22,806 nt of DNA from IMG/VR virus record IMGVR_UViG_3300044546_000427, positions 1-22,806 of that record. One strand, written 5' to 3'. How positions within the stretch are numbered: position 1 is the first letter of the stretch; each line of letters begins with the position of its first letter. The position numbers were made by a program, and so were the translations under genes. Positions 780 through 22,494 of the stretch are shown here, piece after piece. Origin of the DNA: a virus. Under the pieces are notes generated by a model. It was not told the origin of the DNA and did no database searches. It saw only the letters and a program-made list of their open reading frames with translations.

Positions 780-943
780 TTCATCCCCTTCTTCATCTTC
801 TGCGCCTTCTGCGCCTCGGACATGGCGATCGCCACGGCCTGGTCACGGGTCTTCACCTTCTGACCGGAGCTGCTCATCAGCTTCTTGTCTTTAAATTCAC
901 CCATCACCTTTGCAATTTTCTTGGTTGCTGCTGTAAGTTTCAT
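776..943 (-). CDS. DUF6496-like small basic protein
   Basis: A 55-residue, strongly basic protein starting MKLTAATKKIAKVMGEF. It matches the pattern of DUF6496 proteins: 'KKIAKVMGEFK', then a Ser/Gly/Lys linker 'SSSGQKV', then 'RDQAVAIAMSEA'. These proteins are common in phages and bacteria and have no established function; the Lys-rich helix suggests nucleic-acid contact, which is inference. The start codon overlaps the terminase stop (ATGA, 940-943), and the stop overlaps the next gene's start (ATGA, 776-779). It therefore sits inside a tightly coupled late operon. Confidence 0.8.
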   Translation of the reverse strand: MKLTAATKKIAKVMGEFKDKKLMSSSGQKVKTRDQAVAIAMSEAQKAQKMKKGMK

Positions 944-2343
944 GCTGCCCTCGTCAGGTTACGTTTCAAACTCGAACCATACTTATGCATCTGCGAGCCG
1001 AACATCGCAGTCCCGGCATCGCTGGCAAATGTAAGGCAAAAGGCATCAGCCTTGTCGGGTGACGCCAACCCACGCTTGCGAATCTCGTCCTTGCCCTCAA
1101 TCTGAATTTTACCCCCGCTGGTAAAAAAGTATCTCACTGTCGCCAACTCAGCAATCAAGGACTCATCCTTGGGAATAACGCAGTCACGCTTCTCCAGCCA
1201 TGCCTTGGCCTTGTGCCACAACTCAGCCTTCAGATTCCGGTAGGTACTCCCCAATGCCGGGGATTCTGCCACGTTAATGCCAATGGCTGGCAACTTCAAC
1301 TCACGAAGCCTGTCCACCACACCAGCCCCCAACCCAATACTATCCACCATAATCTCATGCGGACGTTGGTCCGGTGGCAATGCCTGGTACTCAGCCATCA
1401 CCGCACCAGTCAGTTGCATCAGGTCCAGGTTCTTCCACGTTTTCACTGGCTCGGTAACTGCATTACCCTGCCGCTTGCATAATGCGCTCCTGTCTGACCC
1501 AAACCGCGCAACGTCCAGCCCCCACACAACCTTGGCTATTGGGCTGACTGCTACGTCCCTGTTGGTTGCAGCCTCCAACAATTCCATCGGTATCACCGTA
1601 TCGTCGTCGCTCCTTGGGAAGTCGCCCAGCACCCTTATTCGGTAGGCGTTGGACTCCTCGCCGTACCTAGACTTCATCTCGCCCATATAGGCGTCTGACA
1701 CCCTCGGGCTGTCGGCGCAGCTCACCTTCATGGTCACCCAGTCATCCTTCAGGCGGTTGTGCGTATCAAAGAAGAATCCGCTGCTGCGTACCGGGTTACC
1801 TAAGAGTAACGTCACGGCCTTGTGGCCCGACATACTGCCTGCCGCCGCCTCGAACACCTGCTCTGGTATACCGCTGGCCTCGTCAGCCACCAGCATCACA
1901 TTGTCGGAGTGGACGCCTTGCAACGCCTCGGGCTGCTCTGCGCGTGATGTCCTGGCGCTGATGAACGCCTCTGTCGGTGCCTCCTTAACCTCGATGCGGT
2001 CCTGCTTCACCTCCAGTTGCTCTTGTAACGGCGCGGGAAGTTGTTTCACCCACCGCTTCAGTTCAGCAAACAGCGCATCGTATAGCTGGCTTGAGGTAGG
2101 TGCCGTCACCACAATCTTGACGGGGAAGCGCAGCAGCAGATACCAGATGATGGCCCAGGACGCTGCCGTACTCTTGCCTACGCCATGCCCGGACCTAACG
2201 CTGATGCGCCTGTTGTTGGCTGCAATATGCCCCAAGAATTCCTCTTGCCAGGGGTCGGGTTTAACGCCCAGCACCTCTTTCACAAACAGCACAGGGTTGT
2301 TTCGGTAGAGTTGCGTAAAAGCAACAAATGGGTTTTCACTCAT
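940..2343 (-). CDS. terL: Terminase large subunit
   Basis: A 467-residue packaging motor of usual length. The N-terminal ATPase shows Walker A 'SGHGVGKST' (residues 51-59), a Walker B 'VMLVADEA' (149-156) with catalytic Glu155, and the coupling motif 'LLLGNP' (179-184). The C-terminal RNase H-like nuclease shows 'GLDVARFG' (275-282, Asp277), 'MVDSIGLGAG' (332-341, Asp334) and a third acidic site near 'SPDKADAF' (428-435). The protein pumps DNA into the prohead and cuts the concatemer, working with the small subunit and the portal. The start at 2343 has no Shine-Dalgarno sequence; an A-rich stretch precedes it. A copy of the repeat found around terS lies 12-30 bases upstream. It is followed by ATGA-coupled small late genes. 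Confidence 0.97.
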   Translation of the reverse strand: MSENPFVAFTQLYRNNPVLFVKEVLGVKPDPWQEEFLGHIAANNRRISVRSGHGVGKSTAASWAIIWYLLLRFPVKIVVTAPTSSQLYDALFAELKRWVKQLPAPLQEQLEVKQDRIEVKEAPTEAFISARTSRAEQPEALQGVHSDNVMLVADEASGIPEQVFEAAAGSMSGHKAVTLLLGNPVRSSGFFFDTHNRLKDDWVTMKVSCADSPRVSDAYMGEMKSRYGEESNAYRIRVLGDFPRSDDDTVIPMELLEAATNRDVAVSPIAKVVWGLDVARFGSDRSALCKRQGNAVTEPVKTWKNLDLMQLTGAVMAEYQALPPDQRPHEIMVDSIGLGAGVVDRLRELKLPAIGINVAESPALGSTYRNLKAELWHKAKAWLEKRDCVIPKDESLIAELATVRYFFTSGGKIQIEGKDEIRKRGLASPDKADAFCLTFASDAGTAMFGSQMHKYGSSLKRNLTRAA

Positions 2344-2354
2344 TTTTTAAATTT

Positions 2355-2373
2355 TTTGTGGTCAATGTGGGCA
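2355..2373 (-). repeat. terS-region repeat copy upstream of terL
   Basis: Read on the minus strand this is TGCCCACATTGACCACAAA. It matches the copy in front of terS (2890-2908) at 17 of 19 positions, both differences being transitions. It ends 11 bases before the terL start codon and keeps the same orientation and similar position relative to its gene as the terS copy does. Confidence 0.7.
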
Positions 2374-2374
2374 G

Positions 2375-2454
2375 TTTGTGGGTGGTTTGTGGGTGGTTTG
2401 CTAGGTGTTTGGTGCTGCAGTTTACACCCCCCAGCTTTTTGTCAAGGGGGGGGG
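2375..2454. repeat. Low-complexity spacer between terS and terL
   Basis: The 127-base gap between the terminase genes holds no gene. It contains two exact tandem copies of the 11-mer TTTGTGGGTGG (2375-2385, 2386-2396) and a partial third, then a C6 run (2427-2432) and a G9 run (2446-2454). The C and G runs could pair into a hairpin. The long G run is a likely replication-slippage site. Confidence 0.6.
2419..2445 (-). promoter_or_regulatory. Possible promoter for terL
   Basis: On the minus strand there is a perfect -35 box TTGACA (2440-2445) followed after a short 15-base spacer by TAAACT (2419-2424, four of six matches to the -10 consensus). The short spacer makes it weak. It would give a leader of about 70 bases before terL. 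Confidence 0.3.
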
Positions 2455-2470
2455 CTGTACATCCATACAG

Positions 2471-2881
2471 CTATTCGGCATCTAGGACGGTGATCTGGCG
2501 TAAAGCATCCAGGCGCAAGCTACCTATGTTGATGCTAACCTCAGTTTGCTTCGTGCCATATTGCTTTGGGTCCCAGCGTTCGGCGAGCCATTGTCGCGTT
2601 CTGATGCGATGCAACGGCTTAGCTGGATTGTCATCCGGTATCGAATCAGCTATCGTCAATGTCTCACATGCCATTAGATCGGCGGCACGCACGCGCGCAC
2701 GTAGTATATCGTCCTCGAAGCCCGTCTGACGTATCCAGATGTCCAAGGCACGCTTGCTGATGCCTAAAGATAGGCACACGTCCGCGATGGATTTGCCTAC
2801 CTCAAGCATGCCTACGATTAGGTCCGAGTCGATCGCGTCAAGCACTTCCAGGTCGCTTCGTTTCTTTTTGGTCCCGGCCAT
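2471..2881 (-). CDS. terS: Terminase small subunit
   Basis: A 136-residue protein immediately upstream of terL. The N-terminal half has a helix-turn-helix: 'GKSIADVCLSLGISKRALDIWI' spans about residues 29-50, the usual DNA-binding part of small terminases. The middle has a helical region (ILRARVRAADLMACETLTIAD) typical of the oligomerisation domain, and the C-terminal third carries 'RIRTRQWLAERWDPKQYG', a signature seen in this small-terminase family. It recognises the packaging site and hands DNA to TerL. The start at 2881 has a good ribosome site, AAGGA with a five-base gap. Repeats that could be its binding sites sit directly upstream. Confidence 0.88.
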   Translation of the reverse strand: MAGTKKKRSDLEVLDAIDSDLIVGMLEVGKSIADVCLSLGISKRALDIWIRQTGFEDDILRARVRAADLMACETLTIADSIPDDNPAKPLHRIRTRQWLAERWDPKQYGTKQTEVSINIGSLRLDALRQITVLDAE

Positions 2882-2889
2882 GATGGTCC

Positions 2890-3130
2890 TTTGTAGTCAA
2901 TGTAGGCATTGTAGTCACGTAGTTTTAGGCCGCGCCAGTTCCGCACAAACTGCGCCAACTTCGCGCGCTACGCTGGCGCCCGACCTAACCTATACATATA
3001 CATATACACCCTTAAGATTAAACAGAATACATGGCTACATTGACTACAAATAGGCTTTTCCCCTCTGGTGCGCTGTAGTCAATCGCGCCCAAAAACATTG
3101 ACTACAAATCGGCCACATTGACTACAAATC
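2890..3130. repeat. Clustered repeats with core ACATTGACTACAAA
   Basis: Plus-orientation copies lie at 3032-3050 (TGGCTACATTGACTACAAA), 3095-3110 and 3115-3130; the last two are identical over 16 bases with a 20-base period, about two helical turns. A minus-orientation copy, 2890-2908, matches the 3032 copy at 18 of 19 positions. Shorter minus-orientation half copies (GTAGTCA core) are at 2909-2917 and 3074-3083. A further copy lies at 2355-2373. Copies point towards the gene they precede. Such an array is expected for a sequence-specific DNA-binding protein such as TerS, a replication initiator or a regulator. Confidence 0.85.
2991..3008. repeat. (TATACA)3 AT-rich tract
   Basis: Three exact copies of TATACA in tandem within an otherwise GC-rich flank, between the outer and inner repeat copies. 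It could be a DNA-unwinding or bend element, or supply a leftward -10 box for terS. No clear -35 box accompanies it. Confidence 0.5.
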
Positions 3131-3162
3131 AGGGTAAACACCTATTCCATCGTCTTAAAATC

Positions 3163-3171
3163 TGTTACACT
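3163..3171 (+). promoter_or_regulatory. Extended -10 promoter candidate for mini-gene operon
   Basis: TG-T-TACACT fits an extended -10 element. No good -35 box stands at the right distance (TATTCC at 3143-3148 is poor), which extended -10 promoters tolerate and which also fits activation from upstream. The predicted start near 3178 puts the tandem repeats at roughly -48 to -83. Confidence 0.45.
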
Positions 3172-3177
3172 ACTCTA

Positions 3178-3195
3178 CATGGCAACATCGCCATG
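3178..3195 (+). promoter_or_regulatory. Short inverted repeat in the leader of the mini-gene operon
   Basis: CATGGC-AACATC-GCCATG forms a six-base-pair stem with a six-base loop. It sits at the predicted 5' end of the transcript and 15 bases before the first start codon, just ahead of the AAAGGA ribosome site. It could stabilise the mRNA end or be a small operator. Confidence 0.4.
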
Positions 3196-3210
3196 CACTA
3201 AAGGACCACC

Positions 3211-3498
3211 ATGCAGCACCGCGTAACAGAAGCCCAACTCCAAGCCGTCGTCGCCCGTATCAACAAGATTACCGGCTCACCCCTGACGCCTTACGCTGTC
3301 AACGCTGACGGCAAGCACGTACCGCAACCCGGCAACTATCACATCAGCCACGCATACGGCGGCGTTTGTCTGCATCGTATGCACAACGGAGGCGGCGGCG
3401 TATCCTCACCACTCAGCACCGGCCATATCCCCAAGCGCGAATTGCTTAGCCTAATGTTTGCTTTTATTGAAGGCTTGAACCAAGGGGCGACGGCATGA
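3211..3498 (+). CDS. Conserved phage protein of unknown function
   Basis: A 95-residue protein with the recognisable sequence order 'LQAVVARINKITGSPLTPY', then 'GNYHISHAYGGVCLHRM', a Gly-rich turn, and 'HIPKRELLSLMFAFIEGL' at the C-terminus. I recall proteins with this arrangement in many phages of pseudomonads and burkholderias, none with a known function. The order suggests a helix, a small beta region and a C-terminal helix. It is the first gene of the rightward mini-gene operon, with a clear AAGGA ribosome site five bases before the ATG. Its stop overlaps the next start by ATGA. Confidence 0.85.
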   Translation: MQHRVTEAQLQAVVARINKITGSPLTPYAVNADGKHVPQPGNYHISHAYGGVCLHRMHNGGGGVSSPLSTGHIPKRELLSLMFAFIEGLNQGATA

Positions 3499-5094: not shown

Positions 5095-5117
5095 AAGCCC
5101 CGAAAGGGGCTTTTTTT
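5095..5117 (+). terminator. Intrinsic terminator of the mini-gene operon
   Basis: AAGCCCC-GAAA-GGGGCTT forms a GC-rich stem with a GAAA tetraloop, followed by a run of seven T (5111-5117). It closes the rightward operon. The stop codon of the convergent primase-helicase gene (5116-5118) lies within this T tract. Confidence 0.9.
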
Positions 5118-7392
5118 ACGCCACGGCCCGGCGCATGTCCGACTTCGACAGCCCGGCCACGTCGGGCGCTGCGAAAATATGCTTTTTAGATGGGTACTCT
5201 CTGGACGTCAGACGGCCCATATCCGACCACCCAGCCTCGCGCAGGGCATGGAACAGCGCGGCCTGGACAATCTTGACGCCGGGCGGCGCGGCGCCCGACC
5301 CCTGCACCCGGTCGCAGATGACGTGAAACGGCGAGCCGATCACGCCAGCAGCGAACGGGCCACGCCGCTCGCGCAGCATCTCGGTAAGCACTGACTCGGC
5401 GGTGCTCATGCCAGCCTCGATCATTATGGCCTTGGCCTCGGTCATAGGCGGCGGCGCGGACGGGTTGAAGGCGGACACGTCACGGGCCATCAGCCAAGCG
5501 GCCACGCCTGCGAAGCCGTTACGATGTATGTACCAATTCCACAGGCCCACAGCCTCGGCTTCTGGGAGGCGTCCGGCCTCGGCCCACAGTACGAACCAGC
5601 GCCTATCATCAGAGGGGAGACTGATAGAAACGCGCTCGTTAGAGAAGGCGACGACCAGCACTCGGTTAAGGGCCATGTAAGGGTGCAAGCCTTTACGATT
5701 GATGGGGAGATACTCGGGCGGGGCGGCGATGACGGGCTTAAGGTGATTCTCCAACGCCCGGCGGTCTTTAGCCTCACTCTGGCGCAGCTCGGCGATCTCC
5801 ATCACCTCGCACTCCAGCCCGTAGCCCCACTGCGAGGTCAGGTCTTCATTTTTGACCATCGAGCAGTTGACCTTGGCCGGGCCTCCGATGGACCAGAAGA
5901 AGGGCGCCAGCAGCGTGTCCTTACCGGAGCCGGGCTTGCCGCCCAGCAGAACGGCGTGATTGATCTTGTGGCCGGGATACTGGACCTTGTGGGCCAGCAC
6001 GTTCAGGAGGTGCTCGCGCTCGAAGTCTATCGGGACCATGCGCGAGAGGTGGCGCAGCCAGATGCTGATGTCGCAGGCCACAGGTGTCGGGCGAGCGTCG
6101 CGCCAGCGGTTGCCGTAAACCTGGCCGTCCTTATCGACTAGGACCGACTCACCCGCTGAATAGGTGATACCGACCAGTGACTTGGCACCAGCGGCCTGGC
6201 GGTTCTCGTCAAAGCATACGCTGGCCTCGACCCGACGGGCGGACTTGCCGGTAGCGTGGATGGAGACGCACTTGATGTGGCGAAACAGGGCGTTAAAGGT
6301 CGCGCGCGACAGCTCGCGGCGGTCCACCATATCGAAAAAAGCCTCATCGTCCTGCAAGTATGCGAACCGCTCATACCAGCCTGACTTCTCGACCCGGCCC
6401 AACTCCTGGCGCTCGACCTCGGCAATAACCGCAGCCGCCACGTCCGGGTAAGCAGGGCTAGGCTTGAGCTTGGCGAGGGCCAGCTCCAGATGCGCGGCCA
6501 TCAGGTCATCACGCAGGCCGGGCGAGTGGCGGGGGCCACCGTTGTCGGCCACCCACTGCATAAAGGTGTTGCTGTCCAGATCGACGCAGTGACTGTGCAT
6601 ACAGCAAAAGGCGCGGTTCAGGGGCATGTAGCGGCCCTCTGGGTTGCCGTCGGTATGCTCGGCGCTGTTGGGGCAGACCACACCGGCCCAACCCTCGGCG
6701 TTGGCGCGGGAGAGCAGCAGACCCTGACCGGAGAGCCAAGCCAGCACATCATCGTCGCCATCGTCACTGATTCGGATAGGGCGGGGGCCACCAGACTCGG
6801 CAGGGCCGGGCGTCACGTCCAGGGCGGCGCAGATGTCGGCGAGTACGAACTCGCGCTCGGGGTGGAACTCAACCAGGGCAGACGCGAACTCGGCCTTGTC
6901 AGGCTTGAGGTTGACAGAGCCAGGCAGTCGGAAGTTGCGGACGGGGTTACAGGCGCCGGGGTCGGTGTAGCCAGCAGCGGCGATGGCCTTGATAGCGGCG
7001 GCGAAGGCGCCCTTGGGCGGCTGCTCACTGAAGACGTAGCCGTACTGGAAGTTATCGGGCGATGTCTCCATGATCCAGGTCGGCGGCAGCGGCGGGGTCT
7101 TGGACTTGGTGCCGATATCGTCCAGCACCATCACGGCCACGTACTCGCAATTAGCTGACGCTGCGGACACCCGGCCCTCGACAAAGCGGTCGCAGATGAA
7201 GGAGGCGGTGTTGCCGTACCAAGCCTGGCCCTTACGGACACCGTGCGACGGCAGGTAGGAGGGCCAGGTGGCCTTAACGGCTCCATCGGCATGATACTGG
7301 CGCTCACCGCCCCGTAACTGTGGTTTTTGCTGCACAAAAAGCATCGTCTCGCCCTCGGGCGCCAGACTGGTGATAAAATCTAGGAATTGCAT
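5116..7392 (-). CDS. Primase-helicase (AEP-like primase, zinc site, DUF5906-type ATPase)
   Basis: A protein of about 758 residues (760 from an alternative start at 7398). Numbered from the longer form, residues 85-165 look like an archaeo-eukaryotic-type primase core: 'VMVLDDIG' with paired Asp93/Asp94, then 'GYVFSEQP' and 'NPVRNFRLPGS'. Residues 242-271 carry a probable zinc site (C242, H248, C265/C266, H268, C271). The C-terminal half is a phage superfamily 3-like/DUF5906 ATPase with Walker A 'GGKPGSGKDT' (486-495), 'EVMEIAEL' (531-538) and 'LVVAFSNE' (581-588). It probably makes primers and unwinds DNA at the fork with the polymerase encoded just upstream. The start at 7392 is preferred because AGGA lies five bases before it; the ATG at 7398 abuts the ribosome site. 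Confidence 0.9.
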   Translation of the reverse strand: MQFLDFITSLAPEGETMLFVQQKPQLRGGERQYHADGAVKATWPSYLPSHGVRKGQAWYGNTASFICDRFVEGRVSAASANCEYVAVMVLDDIGTKSKTPPLPPTWIMETSPDNFQYGYVFSEQPPKGAFAAAIKAIAAAGYTDPGACNPVRNFRLPGSVNLKPDKAEFASALVEFHPEREFVLADICAALDVTPGPAESGGPRPIRISDDGDDDVLAWLSGQGLLLSRANAEGWAGVVCPNSAEHTDGNPEGRYMPLNRAFCCMHSHCVDLDSNTFMQWVADNGGPRHSPGLRDDLMAAHLELALAKLKPSPAYPDVAAAVIAEVERQELGRVEKSGWYERFAYLQDDEAFFDMVDRRELSRATFNALFRHIKCVSIHATGKSARRVEASVCFDENRQAAGAKSLVGITYSAGESVLVDKDGQVYGNRWRDARPTPVACDISIWLRHLSRMVPIDFEREHLLNVLAHKVQYPGHKINHAVLLGGKPGSGKDTLLAPFFWSIGGPAKVNCSMVKNEDLTSQWGYGLECEVMEIAELRQSEAKDRRALENHLKPVIAAPPEYLPINRKGLHPYMALNRVLVVAFSNERVSISLPSDDRRWFVLWAEAGRLPEAEAVGLWNWYIHRNGFAGVAAWLMARDVSAFNPSAPPPMTEAKAIMIEAGMSTAESVLTEMLRERRGPFAAGVIGSPFHVICDRVQGSGAAPPGVKIVQAALFHALREAGWSDMGRLTSREYPSKKHIFAAPDVAGLSKSDMRRAVA

Positions 7393-7404
7393 TGCCATCC
7401 TTTG

Positions 7405-20805: not shown

Positions 20806-22494
20806 TTACTCCAACAGAGATTTCAAACGCTTGGCTGGAATCTTGCCTGCGTTAATTTGTTCGAAAATGTTCGCGCCGTATTTCTTGACTGCACTCTTTC
20901 GGATGACGTACTCGCCATTGTCCAGTGCTGCGTAACCATCGTCTGGCCCAGGTGGGTTGTTCATCTGGGGTTTCATTTTGACCATGCCGCCCTTGGCATA
21001 CTCTCCACCAAAACCCATTGGGCCGCCAGTTTCGCCAGCCATGCCACCATAATCTGAATAATTAGGTCCGGTAAGTCCACCCATACCCGCTGAAGACCCA
21101 AGACCGCCTTCGTAGGCACCTGGGTCAATATACCCTTCTGGAAAACCACCAGTATTAACACCAGCAATGTTCCCGCCCAAAATGTCAGCTTCAGTCAAAC
21201 TACCAAGTAGATTTCCGACACCTGTTGCTAGCGTTTGACCCAAGCCGTCAAACCCAAGATTGGATAGGGCTGCTGACAAAGCTGCTTGGTTGTTAATGCC
21301 TGCCATACCAGTGCCAGTTGACATATCAGCACTACCCGGTTGCTCTACTGTTGCCCCACCGCCAAGCAAACCAGTCCCTGTCGTTGCCGCTGGTGGTTTG
21401 TAAACGGCTGGGTTGAAGCCACCAAGGTTGGTGTTGGCGGCTGTCAGTCCAGCTTGGGCTGCATACGCTGGTGACAGTGTGCGTTGAGGCGTCAGCGCCA
21501 TCAGGGACTGGTACGGGTTAGCCGACTGAGATGCAGCGTTGATTTGCGCCAGAGTAGGCGCGTTCTGCTGCATAGTCGATGGCGTGTAAATGTTGCGGAA
21601 AGGCGTACCCGTAATGGCTGTGTTGGTGACCTGCGCTGGTGCAAGCTGGGTGCCTGTCACTTGCCTTGGCGTTGTTGGCCTGGTGATGGGCTGGACAGTA
21701 CCAGTGGTGGTTGTACCTGTGCGAGTCGTAGTACCAGCGTTCCGGGCTGCATTGGCGTTGATTTCTTGCGTAGACATTCCCTTAAAGATGTCTAACTCAC
21801 CAGTTTCAACCGTTGGCCCAAAACGGTCAGAGAAGTATTTCAGTCCAGAAGCGTCAGGTTCACGCCCCAAGACTGATAGGTACATCTGCCGAATAGCATT
21901 ATTCGTTGTTGGCGCAGCAGCTCGTTCAGGTTGCGCCGCCACACTGAATGTGGACAACTCAGTAGGGTCAACTCCAGGGCCAAACTGAGATGTCCAGTAA
22001 GCAATTTCATCTTTACTTGGTGTGCGGCCTAAGACTCGCTCGTAGGCGGCTACAATGGACATTTCATTGGCTGCAGTTGTAGTGGCTCCAGTTCCAGCAG
22101 CAGTTGTAGTGGTAGTGTTAGCTGCTGCTGCCGCCTGTTGTGCAGCTAATTGCTGTGCGGCATTTCTAGCTGCATTGGCAGCAACTTCTTCAGCCGCCAT
22201 GTTCTTAAAGATGTCTAACTCACCAGTTTCAACCGTTGGCCCAAAACGGTCAGAGAAGTATTGCAGCCCTGATGCGTCAGGCGCTCTGCCCAGAACTTCC
22301 ATGTACATATTCCGCACTGCGTCATTTGTATTGGGCGCAGCAGCTCGTTCAGGTTGCGCCGCTACGCTGAAGGTTGACAGTTCAACAGGGTCAACGCTGT
22401 TCCCAAACGTAGACTGCCAGTAGGCAACTTCATCGGCACTTGGTGTGCGGCCTAAGACTCGCTCATAGGCGGTTTGGATTGAAATGTCAGCCAT
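20806..22494 (-). CDS. DUF4214-repeat virion protein
   Basis: A 562-residue protein. Residues about 1-110 and 142-251 are two copies of a block, each made of two DUF4214-like units: 'AYERVLGRTPS' with 'STFSVAAQPERAAAP', then 'MYMEVLGRAPDASGLQYFSD' with 'GPTVETGELDIFK'. A Thr/Ala linker lies between the blocks. The middle is Gln/Thr/Gly-rich. The C-terminus 'DDGYAALDNGEYVIRKSAV' followed by 'KKYGANIFEQIN' is shared with many phage tail or ejection proteins. DUF4214 occurs in surface and S-layer-associated proteins, so an adhesion or matrix role is possible. AAGGAG lies seven bases before the ATG. Confidence 0.82.
   Translation of the reverse strand: MADISIQTAYERVLGRTPSADEVAYWQSTFGNSVDPVELSTFSVAAQPERAAAPNTNDAVRNMYMEVLGRAPDASGLQYFSDRFGPTVETGELDIFKNMAAEEVAANAARNAAQQLAAQQAAAAANTTTTTAAGTGATTTAANEMSIVAAYERVLGRTPSKDEIAYWTSQFGPGVDPTELSTFSVAAQPERAAAPTTNNAIRQMYLSVLGREPDASGLKYFSDRFGPTVETGELDIFKGMSTQEINANAARNAGTTTRTGTTTTGTVQPITRPTTPRQVTGTQLAPAQVTNTAITGTPFRNIYTPSTMQQNAPTLAQINAASQSANPYQSLMALTPQRTLSPAYAAQAGLTAANTNLGGFNPAVYKPPAATTGTGLLGGGATVEQPGSADMSTGTGMAGINNQAALSAALSNLGFDGLGQTLATGVGNLLGSLTEADILGGNIAGVNTGGFPEGYIDPGAYEGGLGSSAGMGGLTGPNYSDYGGMAGETGGPMGFGGEYAKGGMVKMKPQMNNPPGPDDGYAALDNGEYVIRKSAVKKYGANIFEQINAGKIPAKRLKSLLE
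21781..22490 (-). repeat. Internal gene duplication, 423-bp offset
   Basis: Two DNA blocks inside the DUF4214 gene are offset by exactly 423 bases (141 codons). The longest exact match noticed is 59 bases (21781-21839 and 22204-22262); another exact stretch begins at 21911 and 22334. The near-identical DNA implies recent duplication or gene conversion. Confidence 0.85.

Follow-up and report, generated by a model that had tools for sequence, protein, structure and literature searches.

Gene content and repeat units of the locus

The window, meaning the whole stretch of DNA that was analyzed, is a virus record of 22,806 bases from a freshwater phage. Besides the large and small terminase subunits (terL and terS) and a series of small rightward genes, it encodes a primase-helicase of 760 residues, a polymerase of the PolA type, an exonuclease of the DUF2800 type, a nuclease, and a helicase. 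The features described below are located in Table 1. The product of a large ORF at the far end (20806-22494) is internally duplicated, with a 300-bp direct repeat of 78% identity at 21737-22036 and 22160-22459. The first rightward ORF (3211-3498) had no relative in the near loci searched, and the small genes found at its position seem to differ from phage to phage.

The repeat cluster beside terS was confirmed by sequence scanning: the motif ACATTGACTACAAA was present in four exact copies and in one copy with a single mismatch. When up to three mismatches were allowed (≤3), six matches were found in the window compared to a mean of 1.1 in shuffled sequences, and 0 of 100 shuffles reached six. 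In line with the original prediction, which noticed no comparable cluster elsewhere, ~2850-3130 was the strongest 9-mer repeat window in the 22.8 kb, and both the 20-base spacing of the copies at 3095 and 3115 and the (TATACA)3 tract were present. The elementary unit, TGACTACA, was shorter (8-9 bp) than the motif first noted and often occurred in tandem with a 9-bp period. The units were arranged as two arms that diverge from a central tract, the least stable 40 bp of the window. Each copy had been said to point towards its gene; this was true of most copies, the exception being a single inverted unit that lies opposite to its neighbors. The rightward promoter expected behind the tandem was not detected by a simple consensus scan, a simple sigma-70 and terminator scan yielded nothing above chance, and no Rfam family matched in 2300-3300.

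Table 1. Features of the terminase-repeat region and of the primase-helicase gene in the window (strand in parentheses).
Feature	Position (strand)	Description
terL, large terminase subunit	940..2343 (-)	Neighbor of the array
ACATTGACTACAAA, copy with one mismatch	2355-2368 (-)	Sequence scan
terL leader repeats	2355..2394 (-)	TGACCACA 2357-2364, TGCCCACA 2366-2373, variable-number CACCCACAAAC repeats
terS, small terminase subunit	2471..2881 (-)	Pfam Sf6_terminase PF20901, E 1e-14; neighbor of the array
ACATTGACTACAAA, exact copies	2890-2903 (-); 3037-3050, 3095-3108, 3115-3128 (+)	Sequence scan
Left arm	2892..2917 (-)	Three 8-bp units repeating at exactly 9 bp, a short distance upstream of the terS start codon
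Left-arm units	2910-2917, 2901-2908, 2892-2899 (-)	TGACTACA, TGCCTACA, TGACTACA, respectively; written TGACTACA-A-TGCCTACA-T-TGACTACA
AT-rich tract, candidate DNA-unwinding element	2990..3030	Between the arms; (TATACA)3 at 2991-3008
Right arm, proximal pair	3032..3048 (+)	TGGCTACA 3032-3039, TGACTACA 3041-3048; 9-bp period; TGGCTACA-T-TGACTACA
Single inverted unit	3074..3081 (-)	Between GC-rich flanks; conserved in relatives
Right arm, distal units	3099..3126 (+)	TGACTACA 3099-3106, weak CGGCCACA 3110-3117, TGACTACA 3119-3126
Primase-helicase, 760 aa, proposed initiator	5116..7398 (-)	Pfam DUF5906; PHROG DNA primase
C-terminal winged-helix domain, residues 666-760, proposed origin-binding domain	5119..5403 (-)	AlphaFold2 domain model
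Putative specificity triple RLT, codons 729-731, base of wing	5206..5214 (-)	Covaries with the array word

The motif copy in front of terL differed in its surroundings, being joined to different repeats of 11-12 bp, CACCCACAAAC and CACCTAGCAAAC. It keeps TGCCCACATTGACCACA in phages of either array type. Because this copy remains unchanged when the main array switches, its membership in the proposed origin is doubtful, and it may be unrelated to the origin units. The 11-12-bp tandem repeat itself (CACCCACAAAC and CACCTAGCAAAC, 2376-2410 and in L008, L141, and L026) varies in copy number among close relatives, with about seven copies in the terL leader of L008. Between terS and terL (2425-2455, minus strand), a C-tract/G-tract hairpin is followed by TGCAGCACCAAACACC, and distant relatives have a similar C-rich element ahead of terL; the hairpin folded only mildly better than shuffled sequences (z -1.95), and Rfam gave no match.

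Conservation of the array among related phages

Searches with TerS yielded 56 loci, searches with the primase and TerL yielded 160 further rows, and two later primase searches yielded another 160. The relatives came from metagenomic virus collections; the metagenome bins of a few were labeled Rhodoferax or beta-proteobacteria, no more than a hint at the host. About 22 close relatives carried the same units at matching distances from terS, where the original prediction had suggested looking for them, and the left arm was conserved at -22 from the terS ATG. In nearly all primase-bearing relatives, a single array was found at the corresponding place, ~1.5-3 kb past the primase gene. The complete circular relative MW202483, with a primase of 49% identity, had a single dominant array (TTACATAAAC) beside the terminase genes. 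L090, L093, and L096 contain an extra repeat family, ACTAACTTA / TAAGTTAGTG, beside the putative iterons. The first ~60 bases of L200 appear to be sequencing adapter, and this contig end is therefore probably an artefact.

The array words differed among phages and included TGACTACA, GCCCACA/GGCACACA, GTCCACA, GCCAACA, GACCCACA, GCTTACA, and others. In L015, L016, and L029, a different word (TGCCCACA and relatives) occupied the same positions in a word-for-word replacement, and despite the replaced array these phages were 96-100% identical to the window in TerL and 86-94% identical in TerS.

The place between the arms was also distinguished by its low stability. The least stable 40-bp and 60-bp stretches of the whole window start at 2990-2992, and in all 26 near relatives, including phages with the other word, the 40-bp stability minimum of the entire locus fell at the same place between the arms. 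From this stretch 192 of the 228 units in these 26 relatives diverged. The locus has short tandem repeats that are clustered once in the genome and, adjoining them, an AT-rich candidate unwinding element, both of which are expected of an iteron origin. DnaA boxes (TTATNCACA), as expected of a DnaA-dependent origin, were absent from the window. The GC-skew check that had been suggested showed no clear switch point in the fragment, which has many strand switches that make skew uninformative as an origin marker, and in MW202483 the skew had no clear extreme at the array.

Domain structure of the primase-helicase

The primase-helicase consists of an AEP primase (residues ~1-200), a D5/NrS-1-like helicase (~460-660), and a C-terminal winged helix, so that the three activities or folds lie in one chain as in P4 alpha-like initiators. 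The N-terminal part matched AEP primases (S-2L PrimPol, Z 14.7), and the helicase part matched the NrS-1 helicase by sequence (PDB 6k9c, E 7e-7). Since the whole-protein model had low confidence in the helicase, the C-terminal domain was modeled alone; the AlphaFold2 model of the last 110 residues was a winged helix with a mean pLDDT of 91.6, in which residues 729-731 lie where the second strand ends, at the wing base. Structural matches of this domain were mostly winged helices and were weak (Z at most 5.8). Foldseek gave no match at E under 0.001, and a PDB search with the C-terminal profile gave chance matches only. The origin-binding domain of P4 alpha had no sequence match to the C-terminal domain and was absent among the structural matches listed. 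A winged-helix fold is a reasonable assignment from the model, and because the structural matches are weak, no closer family is claimed.

Covariation of the array word with the wing of the primase-helicase

The array word followed residues 729-731, which lie in the winged helix at the C-terminus of the primase-helicase. RLT at these positions went with TGACTACA arrays, and all TGACTACA phages of the near group had RLT. LVH or LIH was associated with GCCCACA/GGCACACA arrays, RLK or RIK plus a D-containing wing mostly with GTCCACA, and RLA plus a QTKK wing with GCCNACA. The words were degenerate within some wing classes, as GCCAACA, GACCCACA, and GCCTACA were all found in RLA-SREYQTKK phages. 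Two phages with RIM/RVM also had GACTACA words in the region scanned.

Among the 26 near relatives, only columns 729, 730, and 731 of the 758 primase columns separated the array types (RLT vs. LVH). No separating column was found in TerS (0/132), TerL (0/467), PolA (0/36), or g357 (0/139). TerS, which did not covary with the array type, and TerL and PolA, which had no discriminating columns, are improbable as readers of the repeats. Two small ORFs had discriminating columns in small samples (g4345, 4/68 in seven sequences; g4554, 1/108), and these small proteins therefore remain in play. The sharpest case was L015, whose primase carries LVH and is ~98% identical to that of the window. Compared with the primase of L014 it has 12 differences, including the three adjacent wing residues. 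Identity of 98% does not exclude the primase as the reader, as the few differences include the wing triple.

The association was not confined to a single lineage. In a tree of the primase without its C-terminus, RLT/TGACTACA phages appeared at separate places among LVH/LIH lineages, and LVH/CCCACA phages appeared inside the RLT clade. Pairs from 202 phages were then sorted by same or different triple and by identity of the primase body. The mean array-word similarity for the same compared to a different triple was 0.50 vs. 0.07 above 95% body identity, 0.52 vs. 0.07 at 85-95%, 0.44 vs. 0.04 at 72-85%, and 0.34 vs. 0.03 below 72%. In some contigs the most repeated words were GC-rich neighboring tandem repeats rather than iterons, and taking these as words added noise and lowered the within-class similarity. 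When triples were permuted within clusters of close primases, 0 of 2000 permutations reached the observed difference in similarity. Because phage pairs in the similarity test are not independent, independent pairs on the tree were also tested. For R.K vs. GTCCACA, ~10 of 14 independent pairs agreed and none opposed (p ~0.002); four other such tests pointed in the same direction with too few pairs for significance. The wing triple changed at least 40 times on the independent-pair tree.

A second group of phages has a similar TerL and another replication protein (~700 aa; a Toprim/ATPase fusion on visual inspection). Arrays lie directly downstream of its replication gene (L144:4392-4600, L168:6258-6400, L176:6253-6460, L178:6340-6450, L184:2093-2310, and L208:4063-4250). 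Their words (TAAACAAATGG, TCAACGAATGG, TCCTACAAATGG, TACAAATCG) differ among phages, and the C-terminus of the protein differs along with them. The same principle seems to be at work here in another initiator.

The array as a candidate replication origin

The data suggest that the array at ~2892-3126 is an iteron-type replication origin recognized by the phage's own primase-helicase through its C-terminal winged helix (probability about 0.88). The iteron reading, one of those named in the original prediction, is strongly supported: the array word and the DNA-binding wing of the primase-helicase covary, both arms point away from the least stable stretch, and relatives show the same layout.

The repeats might instead be operators, the sites of a phage transcription regulator for terS, terL, and the rightward operon. 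Units do occur immediately upstream of the start codons of terS and terL and also upstream of the rightward genes, and their orientation mostly follows the genes, but no regulator gene covaried with the word among the testable genes, and the protein that did covary was the primase-helicase. Operators alone are thus an unlikely explanation, with only a few percent of our belief, and a shared-operator reading is not needed; in a dual role, the initiator may also repress the flanking genes through the same sites. It is also conceivable, at still longer odds, that the origin is as proposed and is read by a separate small phage protein, the wing changing for another reason such as contact with that protein. 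This would be accommodated by g4345 and certain small, variable genes in the rightward operon, which were testable only in part of the genomes, but the same triples and the same words recur over ~200 phages, down to primase identities below 72%, and the association falls on the wing of a DNA-binding fold. The headline of the original prediction, a packaging site at which TerS would bind the repeats as lambda TerS binds R sites beside a cos or pac cleavage site, gained no support and is highly improbable, since, although the array lies directly beside terS here and near the terminase genes in relatives, no TerS or TerL column follows the array type, TerS retains 86-94% identity across the array replacement (that of L029 is only five residues from the TerS of other-array phages), and the array word tracks the primase wing instead.

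Under the iteron-origin reading, two divergent sets of 8-bp iterons (TGACTACA) would flank an AT-rich unwinding element, and the winged-helix domain at the C-terminus of the primase-helicase would bind the iterons, with the variable bases of the unit read by residues 729-731 together with the wing after them (SREYPSKKH). Several subunits would be bound per arm, and helicase rings would assemble on both sides of the AT-rich tract. The rings would then melt the tract so that two forks start and replication proceeds bidirectionally, with the primase-helicase itself making primers and the phage PolA extending them.

A wing code may also operate in these phages, and we lean towards it with some reserve: the three wing residues would set the origin word, and initiator and origin would have been co-switched dozens of times, even inside ~98%-identical clades, so that close phages could share a cell without replicating each other's DNA. 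Such a wing code is not known to have been described for phage primase-helicases, as far as the open-access literature goes and short of a complete review. Origins of uncultured phages are rarely identified, and here a probable origin and its probable reader could be paired from sequence alone in ~200 phages. As the tag word and three amino acids switch together, the matching rule might be read directly from nature, and near-identical natural proteins that are three adjacent residues apart and go with different DNA words would be ready-made experiments on DNA reading by winged helices. Such recurrent switching suggests that origin specificity is under selection, perhaps exerted by competing phages, satellites, or decoy origins.

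Comparison with known replication initiators

Among the closest parallels in domain order and repeat array are phage P4 alpha and the P4 ori/crr. In the account of P4 given in one source (PMC4234260, citing Ziegelin and Lanka 1995 and Yeo et al. 2002), alpha combines a primase, a helicase, and a C-terminal winged helix that binds short origin repeats. P4 alpha has a Toprim-type primase (PMC4234260), whereas the protein here is of the AEP type, and the C-terminal domains have no sequence match. The repeat word also varies widely among relatives of the window phage, in contrast to P4 ori/crr.

An initiator helicase that reads iterons by its C-terminal domain, as proposed here, is likewise found in SaPI Rep (SaPIbov1 and SaPI5) and SCCmec Cch2, in which this domain binds an iteron origin (PMC7581432). 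SaPI5 Rep also fuses a primase to a D5-type helicase, and SaPI Rep was reported to bind apparently as two hexamers (PMC7581432). The window phage is another type of element with a different host group. In SaPIs the origin immediately follows rep, whereas the array here stands beside terS, ~2 kb away from the 3' end of the primase gene and separated from it by other genes.

Two other proteins share the enzymatic domains and differ in the origin. The NrS-1 polymerase of a deep-sea phage likewise joins an AEP primase and a superfamily 3 helicase in one protein, and its genome is reported to have two copies of an 8-nt recognition sequence rather than an iteron array (PMC7102993). The replication protein of the crenarchaeal plasmid pRN1 shares the domain set of the primase-helicase here (AEP primase, helicase, and C-terminal winged helix), and the pRN1 origin contains a large stem-loop and no iteron structure (PMC4234260). 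For the covariation only, a parallel is provided by geminiviruses, single-stranded DNA viruses with an unrelated rolling-circle initiator, in which closely related viruses have different iterons and the parts of Rep that contact these iterons change along with them (PMC12548392).
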